Assembly (NCBI GenBank): GCA_030837225.1
Contig: JAUPKX010000015.1
Span: 1-55,858, forward strand
Length of the DNA stretch: 55,858 nt
Reading direction: 5' to 3'
From: Patescibacteria group bacterium
GTDB lineage: Bacteria; Patescibacteriota; Minisyncoccia; Phycocordibacterales; Phycocordibacteraceae
The position numbers were made by a program, and so were the translations under genes. Positions 1,464 to 5,303 of this stretch are shown here, in pieces. The notes below the pieces were generated by a model that had not been told where the DNA came from, did not search any database, and saw only the letters and a program-made list of their open reading frames with translations. Each line of letters opens with the position of its first letter. Position 1 is the stretch's first letter.

Positions 1464-2357
1464 CTAGCGTCCTTTATCCAAAAGCTTCTGTACTGCCTCA
1501 GTAACAATAGGAAGCATGTCGTCATAGAAGTTAAGTTCGAGAATGTCCGTAAGCCGGAACCAGCGCGCGTCGTCGAGACCGCCCTTCTTCTCGAGCGTGA
1601 GCTCCATGTACGGAGACTCAGCGAGGAAATACGTGACGTGCTTGCGCATCTTTCCCTTCTCGGGATGCGAGGCAATATATTCGTTCTCCCCGATCTTATC
1701 TTTGATGACTGCCGGAAGACCTAGCTCGTCCTTGAGTCCCTCGATAGTTCCCTCCTCAACACTCATACCGGTCGGGATCTTTCCCTTAGACAAGGTCCAG
1801 TGTCCAAACACATCATGGACGAGCGCAAGATAGTACTGTCCCTCGTGATACGCATAGACAATCGCGCCGCCAAGCTCCTCTACGGGAAGATCCTCACGCC
1901 GTACGCGTTCCTTCTTCCCCGTCTCTTCTTTTCCTGGCTCGCCGAGTTCCTTATAGACGGCACCAAGGACACCGTTCACAAAACGACCCGAGGAGTCGCC
2001 ACCAAATACTTTCGCAAGCTCAATAGCTTCGTTGATGGCAACCTTTGCAGGGACCTGAGAACGGTCTGCAAACAGAAGTTCGTAAAGACCAATGCGCAGA
2101 ATGTTTCTATCTACCGGCGCAATGCGCTCAAGAGGCCAATCCGGCGCTGCTTTTGTTATAACGAGATCGAGGTCCGCGCGCTTGGCGAGGACACCTTGAA
2201 GGAGAGCTTCCATGAATGGCCGGTCGGTATCGTCTCCACCGAACTCTTCGACGTTGCGCTGGAGTGCGGCAGTTGCTTCCGCATCACTACGGTAAGACGT
2301 ATCCCACTCGAAGAGAGTCTGGAGGACGACGGAACGGGCGAGATGTCGGTTGGCCAT
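1464..2357 (-). CDS. nusB: NusB antitermination domain fused to a Nudix-like domain
   Basis: A 297-residue fusion. Residues 1-140 are a NusB domain (N-terminal RHLARSVVLQTLFEWD; later PVDRNILRIGLYELL and PAKVAINEAIELAK), which in other bacteria binds boxA RNA with NusE/S10 in rRNA antitermination. A charged linker (about 141-157) leads to a Nudix fold at about 160-297. The Nudix box aligns over KGKIPTGMSVEEG and TIEGLKDELGL, but the catalytic REUXEE core reads EGLKDE: both the Arg and the first catalytic Glu are lost. It may therefore bind rather than hydrolyse nucleotides. A TATACT box lies 21 bases before the ATG. The order nusB-rnc-smc is sensible for RNA processing. Confidence 0.9.
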   Translation of the reverse strand: MANRHLARSVVLQTLFEWDTSYRSDAEATAALQRNVEEFGGDDTDRPFMEALLQGVLAKRADLDLVITKAAPDWPLERIAPVDRNILRIGLYELLFADRSQVPAKVAINEAIELAKVFGGDSSGRFVNGVLGAVYKELGEPGKEETGKKERVRREDLPVEELGGAIVYAYHEGQYYLALVHDVFGHWTLSKGKIPTGMSVEEGTIEGLKDELGLPAVIKDKIGENEYIASHPEKGKMRKHVTYFLAESPYMELTLEKKGGLDDARWFRLTDILELNFYDDMLPIVTEAVQKLLDKGR

Positions 2358-2441: not shown

Positions 2442-2807
2442 TTACGCGGTACCTCCGAATCCAGAACGTGTTGTTGAACGACCCTTCGTGCTCTTGTCTA
2501 GGATCGAACCCTTCTTCACTTCCTTCTTCGCCTCCATGGCCTGCATATCGTTCTTCTGTACTTCAGGGCTGGTGTCTGCGACTTCTACCTGAGAGCGTTC
2601 GCCGCGACCTTCCTTCTTGTTCTTCGTAACCTTTACGATAGGTGCTGCAATCTGCTTGCCCCTATACATACCGGTTGCCTCGTCAATACGGTGTGGGAGC
2701 CTAAGGTTGCCCGACACCTTGTCAGTAACAATAGCCCCGTCCACAAGCGCGTGATGGCTGCGGCGGTTCTTGGTATGCGAACTAGTGTGGCGCATTCGTA
2801 CGGTCAT
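2442..2807 (-). CDS. rpmF: Large ribosomal subunit protein bL32, with long C-terminal extension
   Basis: Residues 1-54 match bL32: MTVRMRHTSSHTKNRRSHHA, then NLRLPHRIDEATGMYRGKQI, corresponding to the LPHR...G.Y.G end of the family. The two zinc-binding cysteine pairs of many bL32 proteins are absent (the equivalent stretches are DKVSG and DEATG), so this is the zinc-independent form. bL32 is usually about 57-60 residues; this one has 121. The extra 65 residues are lysine- and glutamate-rich and low-complexity (TKNKKEGRGERSQ, MEAKKEVKKG), ending with STTRSGFGGTA. The tail has no recognisable domain and could interact with rRNA or a partner. A -10-like TATGAT lies at about 2822-2827 upstream. 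Confidence 0.85.
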   Translation of the reverse strand: MTVRMRHTSSHTKNRRSHHALVDGAIVTDKVSGNLRLPHRIDEATGMYRGKQIAAPIVKVTKNKKEGRGERSQVEVADTSPEVQKNDMQAMEAKKEVKKGSILDKSTKGRSTTRSGFGGTA

Positions 2808-2867
2808 AGTGGGAATACCTTATCATAGGGGCTCTATAAACGGAAGCGCACTGAAGGGCCTTTGTTT

Positions 2868-3140
2868 TAGGGGGTTCTGGTGGTACTAAGAAGAGGTGCC
2901 TTGCCCTTCTCCACAGGAGCCCATCCTGCGATCGGCAGCACAGCAGCCCACCCTACTACAGGGTAAAGGTTAGTCGCCAAAACAGAGGATCTGGCGATGC
3001 AGAATACAGTCACTTCAGTCGTTCGGGGCGTCGGTGAGGAGGAACTGCTCATTTTAACGTCGCGGTATTCTCCGCGCATGCACGATCCGGGGTAGTCGTG
3101 GTGCTGACTGCCCCGGTGCACCTTTCTAAGCACCACCGTC
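2868..3140. ncRNA. Candidate structured non-coding RNA, class and strand unresolved
   Basis: This almost 400-base gap between rpmF and rnhB has no convincing gene but is rich in base-pairing. A long-range helix joins about 2878-2900 with 3114-3137 (GGTGGT.CT.AGAA.AGGTGC against GCACCTTTCTAAGCACCACC, few mismatches). Inside it are perfect or near-perfect hairpins: 2951-2963 (CCCT/AGGG), 2976-2997 (CGCCA/TGGCG), 3061-3076 (CGCGG/CCGCG) and 3087-3116 (CCGGGG.AGTC/GACT.CCCCGG). Size and closure would fit RNase P RNA, and a minus-strand stretch CGGAGAATACCGCG resembles a conserved RNase P segment, but I cannot find a convincing P4 helix. tmRNA is disfavoured: no T-loop or tag sequence is seen. Which strand is transcribed is unknown. 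Confidence 0.4.
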
Positions 3141-3170
3141 CTTGAGCGAGACCATCCGTTCGGACAAAAC

Positions 3171-3202
3171 GAGGGCGCGTTGGCAACTGCCGATGCGCCC
3201 TC
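3171..3202 (-). terminator. Intrinsic terminator after rnhB
   Basis: An 8-bp GC-rich stem (GAGGGCGC/GCGCCCTC) whose arms are extended by internal TGGCA/TGCCG pairing lies four bases past the rnhB stop. The minus strand continues CGTTTTG. The plus strand continues CCTTTATAT, so it might also end a plus-strand RNA at 2868-3140. Confidence 0.7.
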
Positions 3203-3205
3203 CCT

Positions 3206-3781
3206 TTATATATGTATGAACGATCGCCGGTGCTCCTCGATCATGCCATACTCCCGGATCGCTTCCATGTGCGCTTTCGTACCGTATCCTTTGTGTGACC
3301 TAAATCCATAGAGAGGATATGCGGCGTCTGCTTTTAGCATCACCCGGTCTCTGGTTACCTTTGCAGCTACAGACGCGAGCATGATGGAAGGAATGAGTCC
3401 GTCTCCCCCGATTACGGTCTCTTGAGTGTATTCGCTTGGAGCCTTAAGAGACCCGTCGAGCCATACCTTCCCTTCTTCGGGATTTGGGAGGAGCTTCCGT
3501 ACCCCACGATCAAGCGCATGGCGCACCGCATACGCGATACCTTTGTCGTCTATCATGCGCGCACTCGAAAGACACACAACGGCACTTACGTTCCCTGCCT
3601 TCATCTCTTGCTGCAGAATCTTAAAAAGCAACTCCCGCTTCTTCTCGGAAAGTTTCTTCGAATCATTAAGCCCTGGGAATGCCGCGAGGATGTCGTACCC
3701 CTCCCTAACCGCAACAACCCCAACCGCAACAGGGCCCGCTAAGGGCCCGCGCCCCGCCTCATCAACACCGACAAGAATCAT
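3206..3781 (-). CDS. rnhB: Ribonuclease HII
   Basis: A 191-residue enzyme that removes single ribonucleotides and RNA primers from DNA-RNA hybrids. The N-terminal signature GVDEAGRGPLAGP places the catalytic D7 and E8. The third acidic residue is D109 in VWLDGS, and the fourth is in the ASVAAKVTRDR segment (D145). Length is normal. It starts three bases after the stop of the preceding pilin gene (3784-4293) on the same strand, with AGGT just before the ATG, so it is probably co-transcribed with the pilin cassettes although unrelated in function. A terminator follows at 3171-3202. Confidence 0.96.
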   Translation of the reverse strand: MILVGVDEAGRGPLAGPVAVGVVAVREGYDILAAFPGLNDSKKLSEKKRELLFKILQQEMKAGNVSAVVCLSSARMIDDKGIAYAVRHALDRGVRKLLPNPEEGKVWLDGSLKAPSEYTQETVIGGDGLIPSIMLASVAAKVTRDRVMLKADAAYPLYGFRSHKGYGTKAHMEAIREYGMIEEHRRSFIHI

Positions 3782-3783
3782 AC

Positions 3784-4293
3784 CTACCGTGATCGATTCC
3801 CCACCGTTACAGTGCCGTTTCCGTAGTTAAAGACCGTACCGTCGCATGCAGTACTCCCTGGACTTGTCTTTACACCTTCCGGACGCCATACGATCATGTA
3901 CCACCCAAGATCACACCCATAGCTTCGAGAATAATAGGAGAAGGCATATACGCCGGCAGTATAGGGCCAACCACCGGTACTTTGATTCGGGTCACGCGGC
4001 AGCTGCGCCATATAGGGTGCGAGTGCGGTCTGGAAAGTGGCCCAACTACTGTCGGTGCTTGTGGTCCAACCCGAATTAGGTTCAGAGGCACCTCCCGAGG
4101 CTGGGTACTGCCCGTAGTCGAGATAGTAGAGCTCGAGTGCGTTCCTCAGTTGATTTATCGCTGCGGCACGGTTCGCGTCTCGCGCTTTCGCACGTGCGGT
4201 GTTAAGCGAAACGAGCACCACCGACGACAGAACGCCGATGATGGCAATCACCACAAGAAGCTCTATGAGGGTAAAACCGCGTTTACGGTGCAT
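3784..4293 (-). CDS. Type IV prepilin-like protein (cassette A)
   Basis: A 169-residue protein with the class III signal [18 protein letters not shown], cleaved by prepilin peptidase after Gly and methylated on Phe in known systems; E5 of the mature protein is present. The hydrophobic alpha1-N helix runs to [16 protein letters not shown]. The remaining roughly 110 residues are variable, aromatic-rich and contain two cysteines (SYGCDLG and TACDG) that could form a C-terminal loop. The start at 4293 overlaps the end of the partner gene 4283-4537 by 11 bases, showing translational coupling. No pilus ATPase, platform or peptidase gene is in the window, so whether it builds a pilus or a pseudopilus is open. 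Confidence 0.93.
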
Positions 4294-4537
4294 AGGATCC
4301 GGTTGGGAGTGGTGCAGCGGGTGCCACAAGCGGGATTTCTTTCTCCCGCATGAGAAGCGGTACGGCAATCGCCAAAATAACTGCAGCAACGACAACACCG
4401 ACAAGGACTGTCTGTGCCCCCTTCGCATCCTTGGCAAATCCCCACCTCATCACAAGACCTACAAGGGCCGCCTGCGAGCTGCGAACCTGTGGTATCGGTG
4501 CGAGCGTACTCTCCTCGTCAAACGAGACTTCACTCAT
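4283..4537 (-). CDS. Small single-TM partner protein of pilin cassette A (RWGFAKD family)
   Basis: An 84-residue protein of a family seen five times in this window. An acidic N terminus (VSFDEE) and a Pro/Ser linker lead to the signature [13 protein letters not shown] at about residues 29-41. One TM helix ([20 protein letters not shown]) and a short Pro/Ala tail follow. It lies directly upstream of, and overlaps, the pilin gene 3784-4293. The charged N terminus is predicted cytoplasmic. Recurrent pairing suggests a role in pilin assembly, chaperoning or membrane handling, but that is inference; I know no named family with this signature. A TATAGT box lies eight bases before the ATG. Confidence 0.85.
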
Positions 4538-4558
4538 ATAAGGAAACTATAGCATTGG

Positions 4559-5035
4559 CTACTTCCATATACCGGTTGTTGAATCATACATAGTGCAGGT
4601 AAATCCTTGCGAACCGCGACAGAGACCGACATTTGATGTACCGCAGCTCCCAGACCAGCCTGGGTAATACCCGCAGTGCATAAGGTTTCCGTTATACGTA
4701 CTCGTGAGATACATCAAGTTCTCAGCTCCACTCACCCATGCGTATTGATACAGTACCCATCCCTCAGGCGGTCTTGGCCAGGTAACGGATGCATAGGACC
4801 CAATTGTGCAAATCGCATTCGTCGGGGCCGTCGCAGAATTCGGCGCGACCAACTTCCCTCCATCAAGGTCGCATCCAACAATCGCACTCAGAAGTGAGCT
4901 TCCGTATGTTTGAATACCAGCATTCTTTGCTTTCGTACGCGCCGTGTTCAATGACGCGAGCACCACCGACGACAGAACGCCGATGATAGCGATCACGACG
5001 AGGAGCTCGATCAGGGTGAACCCGCGTTGTCTCAT
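4559..5035 (-). CDS. Type IV prepilin-like protein (cassette B)
   Basis: A 158-residue prepilin starting [14 protein letters not shown]. The start at 5035 is chosen because the leader of earlier ORF starts would be far too long. The N-terminal block up to SLNTARTKAKNAG is almost the same as in the other pilins here. The C-terminal part is different: it carries five or more cysteines (VGCDLDG, AICTIG, MHCGYY, SCGTS, GLCRG, FTCTMY), enough for two or three disulfides. It is 13 bases downstream of partner 5049-5303 and 21 bases upstream of cassette A's partner, so cassettes B and A form one co-oriented run ending in rnhB. Confidence 0.92.
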   Translation of the reverse strand: MRQRGFTLIELLVVIAIIGVLSSVVLASLNTARTKAKNAGIQTYGSSLLSAIVGCDLDGGKLVAPNSATAPTNAICTIGSYASVTWPRPPEGWVLYQYAWVSGAENLMYLTSTYNGNLMHCGYYPGWSGSCGTSNVGLCRGSQGFTCTMYDSTTGIWK

Positions 5036-5048
5036 AGTGTTACTGCGC

Positions 5049-5303
5049 CTAACTGGTCGGCCCTGGTATAGCCGTCTGCTCGAGCGGATTAGGTGGTACT
5101 GCTTTAGGACGCAGCGAGCCAAATATGAGCACGAATATCATGGTTGCGAACGCAACAACCGCTATACCAATAAGAAGGTACTCTGCCTGCTTCTCATCTT
5201 TCGCCCATTTCGATCGCACGAGCCATCCGACCATACCTCCCTTCGTCCCTTGCGGGACGCGGGACGACAGTCCTGCTTCTTCACTAAATTGAATGTTAGC
5301 CAT
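5049..5303 (-). CDS. Small single-TM partner protein of pilin cassette B
   Basis: An 84-residue member of the same family as 4283-4537: acidic start (IQFSEE), linker, signature VRSKWAKDEKQA, one TM helix (LLIGIAVVAFATMIFVLIFG) and a Pro-rich tail (VPPNPLEQTAIPGPTS). It is the most divergent copy in the signature (SKWAKDEK instead of RWGFAKDEK). It heads the minus-strand run that continues through pilin B, cassette A and rnhB and is divergent from dnaE, whose start is 96 bases away. A TAGAAT hexamer eight bases before ATG would give a nearly leaderless transcript. Function unknown; the case rests on repeated linkage to pilins. Confidence 0.82.
   Translation of the reverse strand: MANIQFSEEAGLSSRVPQGTKGGMVGWLVRSKWAKDEKQAEYLLIGIAVVAFATMIFVLIFGSLRPKAVPPNPLEQTAIPGPTS

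Follow-up and report, generated by a model that had tools for sequence, protein, structure and literature searches.

A probable small protein gene with a structured mRNA in the rpmF-rnhB gap of a Patescibacteria genome

The window analyzed here, that is, the whole stretch of 55,858 nucleotides, is contig C5 of a 667-kb Patescibacteria genome in 16 contigs. Within it, a 398-nt gap (2808-3205) separates rpmF (2807..2442) from rnhB (3781..3206), both located on the - strand and encoding products that match Pfam Ribosomal_L32p and RNase_HII, respectively. The rnhB-rpmF pair is followed by a NusB-NUDIX fusion gene and then by rnc. The fusion (window 1464-2357, - strand; Pfam PF01029 and PF00293) is strongly conserved, at ~70-87% identity across the genus. 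L32 (2442-2807, - strand) has 121 aa in all, with a C-terminal extension of ~65 residues, and two pilin-like genes with N-methylation motifs are found near rnhB (window 3784-5122, - strand). The rpmF mRNA itself looks near-leaderless, having a -10-like TGnTAAGGT ~7 nt upstream of the ATG, as do the relatives. Since this promoter leaves only ~7 nt before the rpmF start in relatives, the gap is not the rpmF 5' UTR, and we rejected its interpretation as an rpmF leader. Two further candidates were also rejected: an 89-aa ORF on the - strand (3136..2867), which is interrupted by stops in the nearest relative, and a mobile or repeated element, as the unit is present in a single copy in its own genome and phage records gave no match.

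The + strand of the gap carries a predicted promoter, a small ORF and a terminator (Table 1). Much of what can be said about them comes from comparison with the nearest relative, L039 (RnhB 87% identical), in which the gap is alignable with 271 of 409 columns identical. The rpmF promoter, the hairpin preceding the ATG, a central block GGTGAGGAGGARCTGCTCATTTTA, the stop-codon hairpin and the terminator are all kept in L039. The predicted + strand promoter is the best-scoring site in the gap of both the window and L039 (spacing 16 or 17 in the latter), and it is found in the same place in L040, L042, L043 and L048 with a spacing of 16-17 bp. L039 keeps both hexamers and the spacer length, with a diverged spacer sequence. 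A stricter consensus scan of the gap did not find this promoter, so that the call rests on comparison.

Table 1. Features of the rpmF-rnhB gap and their state in relatives
Feature	Position	Strand	Basis or conservation
Predicted divergent rpmF promoter, boundary of the element	2808..2845	-	TGnTAAGGT-like motif ~7 nt before the rpmF ATG in relatives' gaps
Predicted promoter: -35 TTGTTT (2862-2867), 16-bp spacer, -10 TACTAA (2884-2889) preceded by TG	2862..2889	+	
Putative transcript, from ~6-8 nt after the -10 to the terminator	2896..3205	+	Deduced from promoter and terminator
Hairpin with Shine-Dalgarno GAGGA (2985-2989) in its loop, directly before the ATG	2973..2998	+	Stem mostly kept in L039
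Small ORF of 32 codons, MQNTVTSVVRGVGEEELLILTSRYSPRMHDPG, stop TAG	2997..3095	+	Frame and ends kept in L039; equivalent ORF in 14/15 units
11-bp hairpin with the stop codon (3093-3095) in its 5' arm and loop GUGGUGCU (3098-3105)	3087..3116	+	Nearly invariant in L039
AGCACCAC, candidate pseudoknot partner of the stop-hairpin loop, 8 bp	3129..3136	+	Pairing changes in L039
Small hairpin GAGCG/CGUUC with loop ARACYAUC	3144..3161	+	Stem kept in L039 via G-U to G-C; loop nearly invariant
Intrinsic terminator, 14-bp stem (3171-3202) and T-rich tail	3171..3210	+	Terminator scan; 13/14 pairs kept in L039

The initial annotation of this region held that no good gene is present. This is probably wrong, given a 32-codon ORF that is preceded by a Shine-Dalgarno (SD) sequence and has counterparts in related genomes. 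Between the window and L039 the ORF is open, retains both ends and contains no indel, as opposed to seven indels elsewhere in the gap. The other alignable pair, L004 and L041, displays the same pattern, with both ORF ends kept, no indel inside and indels around it. In both pairs the start, the SD and the stop are kept, and of the six frames it is that of the ORF that scores best by BLOSUM, the others being not far behind. The corresponding pN/pS values are ~0.67 and 0.72, which suggests weak purifying selection on the peptide and counts against the coding reading.

To place the ORF in a broader context, we turn to the distribution of such units in the genus. We found rnhB in 87 of the 93 genus genomes, and at most readable loci it is followed by rpmF after a gap of 4 to 1428 nt. 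The gaps are of three main kinds: those that are both short and empty, those in which the rnhB strand carries small Cys-rich (CxxC) genes, and those with a unit of ~300-350 nt on the opposite strand. The opposite-strand unit adjoins rpmF, either alone or beside a Cys-rich gene, and it is this kind that occupies the window gap, which has no Cys-rich gene of the type found in the relatives' gaps. For the Cys-rich CxxC proteins themselves (70-120 aa) the rnhB-rpmF gap is a hot spot (for example, in L016, L018, L020, L022, L023, L025 and L061); there are one or two genes per gap, of several mutually unalignable types, and the four tested had no Pfam match. The opposite-strand unit is missing from L006 and present in its close relative L007. 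Thus, the unit is gained or lost whole and behaves as one removable gene.

Comparable units occupy this slot in 15 genomes of the genus, and an ATG ORF of 16-60 codons that is preceded by an SD and lies on the unit strand is found in 14 of the 15. Dinucleotide shuffles have a mean of 2.0, and none of 500 reaches the observed number. As for controls, such ORFs occur on the other strand of 5 of the 15 units and antisense to 6 of 47 other long gaps. The set of 15 units was not picked blind, as L045 and L010 entered it through their ORFs; without these two the count is 12/13. L029, L053, L070 and L085 were considered and excluded from the set. An alternative test, in which ORFs were placed relative to the predicted start, gave 9 of 11 families against 0.61. 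Further homologues were searched for within the genus (E up to 1), by an order-wide pattern search in a sample of 397 genomes and by a contig search; none were found beyond G093.

The peptides cannot be aligned beyond nearest relatives. However, what several of them do share is an Asp-Pro dipeptide, present in 9 units against 0.16 in shuffles. The more specific pattern [YWHF].?DP occurs in 7 of 15 units against 0.03 in shuffles and is absent from all controls, bearing in mind that this motif was noticed in the same data that were used to test it. Examples include the window (..RMHDPG), L043 (..HYDPG), L042 (..PYDPNLHPV), L004 (..RRHDPCLGFA), L062 (..GYDPPTRYYLRLGR) and L012 (..IWDPADIRQRWRRSS); L039, L041, L044, L045, L048 and L010 lack it. 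The motif codons vary synonymously (TAT/TAC, GAT/GAC, CCG/CCT/CCC), which speaks for a peptide and against a DNA word. In its own genome, the window ORF is the only intergenic SD-preceded ORF with aromatic/His-Asp-Pro near its end. None of the peptides had a match above threshold in Pfam, NCBIfam or PHROGs; a PAP2 match for the L041 peptide was sub-threshold and was taken as chance.

Most of the peptides are hydrophilic and several are basic. The 17-residue hydropathy maximum is 0.86 for the window peptide and negative for many others, and only the L004 and L041 peptides have a clearly hydrophobic stretch (1.66-1.93). This bears on the idea that the unit might be a type I toxin-like mRNA, that is, a small toxic peptide encoded by a long, folded RNA whose 5' and 3' parts pair. 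The long structured RNA, its 5'-3' complementarity, the small ORF and the single hydrophobic stretch in L004/L041 would all fit. However, the hydrophilic character of the window peptide and most others does not, nor was an antisense RNA promoter identified, and we regard a toxin as highly improbable.

Turning to the RNA, the order in this gap had been described as unlikely to arise by chance, and our calculations bear this out. The + strand of 2808-3170 folds with an MFE of -140.1 kcal/mol compared to a shuffle mean of -122.6 (z -3.30, 0/100 shuffles better), and the - strand stands out less (z -2.09, 4/100 shuffles). The structure is therefore real and favors the + strand. The structured gap of 398 nt between rpmF and rnhB stands as a discrete element; RNase P RNA is ruled out for it, and the lack of a good gene was not confirmed. 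An enclosing helix of ~20 bp had also been proposed. The MFE structure does contain a long interrupted helix of 18 pairs (2879-2899/3118-3137) with several hairpins inside, but its role as the organizing element was not confirmed. In L039, 14 of the 18 pairs are kept (8 the same, 4 with one-side and 2 with double changes); the inner, transcribed pairs break, and the outer part overlaps the predicted -10. Because of this overlap of the 5' arm with the predicted promoter, most of the helix would not be transcribed. The 3' arm, AGCACCAC, can also pair with the loop of the stop-codon hairpin, GUGGUGCU. Their L039 counterparts as read from the alignment are CGCACCAU and GUGGUGCG, respectively, in which a U-A pair has become G-C by changes on both sides and a G-C pair has become G-U. 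Since the inner part of the long helix breaks and its 3' arm fits the stop-hairpin loop with compensatory changes, a stop-codon pseudoknot seems to us the better reading than the long helix, although the evidence, from one relative, is thin.

It might be argued that these structures, and not the ORF, are what the unit is for. This is the main rival to the peptide reading: a structured regulatory RNA, noncoding or dual-function, with the hairpins and the pseudoknot (3087-3136) as the product and the ORF incidental or secondary. Consistent with it are the fold z-score, the double compensatory and G-U changes in the pseudoknot, the preserved pairing of the terminator and the small hairpin despite changes and the finding that the hairpin 3087-3116, rather than the ORF, is the most conserved block of the gap in comparison with L039. 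On the other hand, the covariation comes from one relative, and a covariance model of the hairpin/pseudoknot core found no other member in related units or in the own genome. Across units, stop codons fall in hairpins no more often than by chance (6/12 versus 6.6). A regulatory RNA would also leave the recurring SD-preceded ORF and the motif unexplained. We view it as possible but rather unlikely. Of the novel RNA class suggested earlier, what holds up is some covariation, amounting to a few compensatory changes in the one alignable relative, L039, but the best cross-genome signal is the putatively translated small ORF. As to other features of the units, the SD is part of a predicted hairpin in 10 of 11 families, where 6.0 would be expected. 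A leader loop CNNRAC is shared by a few units only and absent from the window.

The position of the stop codon, inside an almost invariant hairpin with a pseudoknot, raises another possibility, namely that a ribosome pause or inefficient termination at ..DPG-UAG controls RNA decay or read-through. Termination at Asp-Pro-stop may be slow, and the peptides of the window, L043 and L007 end in DPG or DP. However, the reading frame beyond the TAG soon meets another stop, a few codons on (TGA at 3105), the + strand has no gene downstream and the stop-hairpin arrangement is not general, so that a translation-control device appears very unlikely.

The length and structure of the element also suggested a divergent copy of a housekeeping RNA, and RNase P RNA had been specifically considered. 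Instead, the RNase P model RF00010 matches contig C12 (C12:11283-11599, 125.3 bits), and models of RNase P (RF00010/RF00011), tmRNA, SRP and 6S RNA are all unmatched in 2700-3300 at E up to 10. A permissive scan of the same region with all of Rfam produced two chance matches only (E 0.4 and 1.7; a microRNA and a lentivirus family), and with curated thresholds the only Rfam match in the whole window is a tRNA. The tmRNA (RF00023) is also on C12. This tmRNA (L033 1501-1910 = G000:C12:107336-107745) was missed by ARAGORN and found by Rfam, and its tag, read by eye as AKNTLASVKSPYFGKKDFAFAYA, ends in AYA and not in the usual LAA. The small SRP RNA model RF00169 is unmatched anywhere in the 98% complete genome G000, which leaves one housekeeping RNA unaccounted for but probably reflects divergence. 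Furthermore, the close relatives L005, L006 and L008 lack the element, and such an absence would hardly fit a housekeeping RNA, barring a move of the RNA to another place. This pattern of presence and absence largely refutes the idea already, and we assign it a negligible chance.

Taken together, we consider the gap to be a lineage-restricted, fast-evolving microprotein gene, separately transcribed into a structured mRNA and encoding a peptide of ~32 aa, with a probability of about 0.7. Divergent from rpmF and convergent with rnhB, it would represent a complete small transcription unit. The promoter would drive an RNA of ~310 nt whose leader folds into hairpins, the last one presenting the SD beside the ATG; ribosomes would translate the 32-aa peptide, and the terminator would stop transcription. 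The computations show where the unit lies, its anatomy of promoter, ORF and terminator, its recurrence, the enrichment of the motif and the absence from known families; we infer transcription and translation, as well as the peptide and not the RNA being the main product. The slot beside rpmF is probably an old one that carries a peptide gene of this type in some members of the genus. The peptide would evolve too fast for any but the nearest relative to be aligned, although several members share [aromatic or His]-Asp-Pro. As to its role, our weakly held guess is that the peptide has an accessory part in regulation or in interactions and docks via the xDP motif, the rest being variable.

It is tempting to go further and envisage a genus-wide family of hypervariable Paceibacterota peptides, each with its own short structured mRNA in the fixed slot beside rpmF and united only by [aromatic/His]-Asp-Pro and position. 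It would be a diversifying system in bacteria thought to be host-attached, possibly with a stop-codon pseudoknot tuning translation. We offer this as a speculation that is more likely to fail than to hold by a wide measure. If the peptide family is real, its members would be rapidly evolving products of bacteria that are ultra-small and still poorly understood. More generally, when a gap in a streamlined genome looks noncoding and structured, it can turn out to be a small gene that escapes homology searches and is recognized only by synteny and start-signal statistics.

Several known systems resemble the window unit. Type I toxin-antitoxin mRNAs (hok, tisB, aapA type) carry a tiny ORF in a long structured mRNA with 5'-3' complementarity. 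The window unit is alike in all these respects, but no antisense RNA was found and most of the peptides are not hydrophobic. As in tmRNA (RF00023), a short ORF lies within a structured RNA, its stop codon is part of a hairpin and a pseudoknot, here a candidate one, comes next; in contrast to tmRNA, the window unit has no tRNA-like domain and no Rfam match, and the tag of the true tmRNA of this genome is unrelated. Intergenic microprotein genes are already a known kind (PMC11188072). The ismORFs of Enterobacteriaceae (15-70 codons) are likewise short unannotated ORFs between conserved genes, without known domains and probably unstructured (PMC11188072). However, a family in that catalogue is recognized by purifying selection within a cluster of alignable members (PMC11188072), whereas the units in the rpmF slot have a shared place and anatomy, are mostly unalignable and appear to be under weak purifying selection. 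What is unusual here is that place and anatomy are conserved and the sequence almost not.
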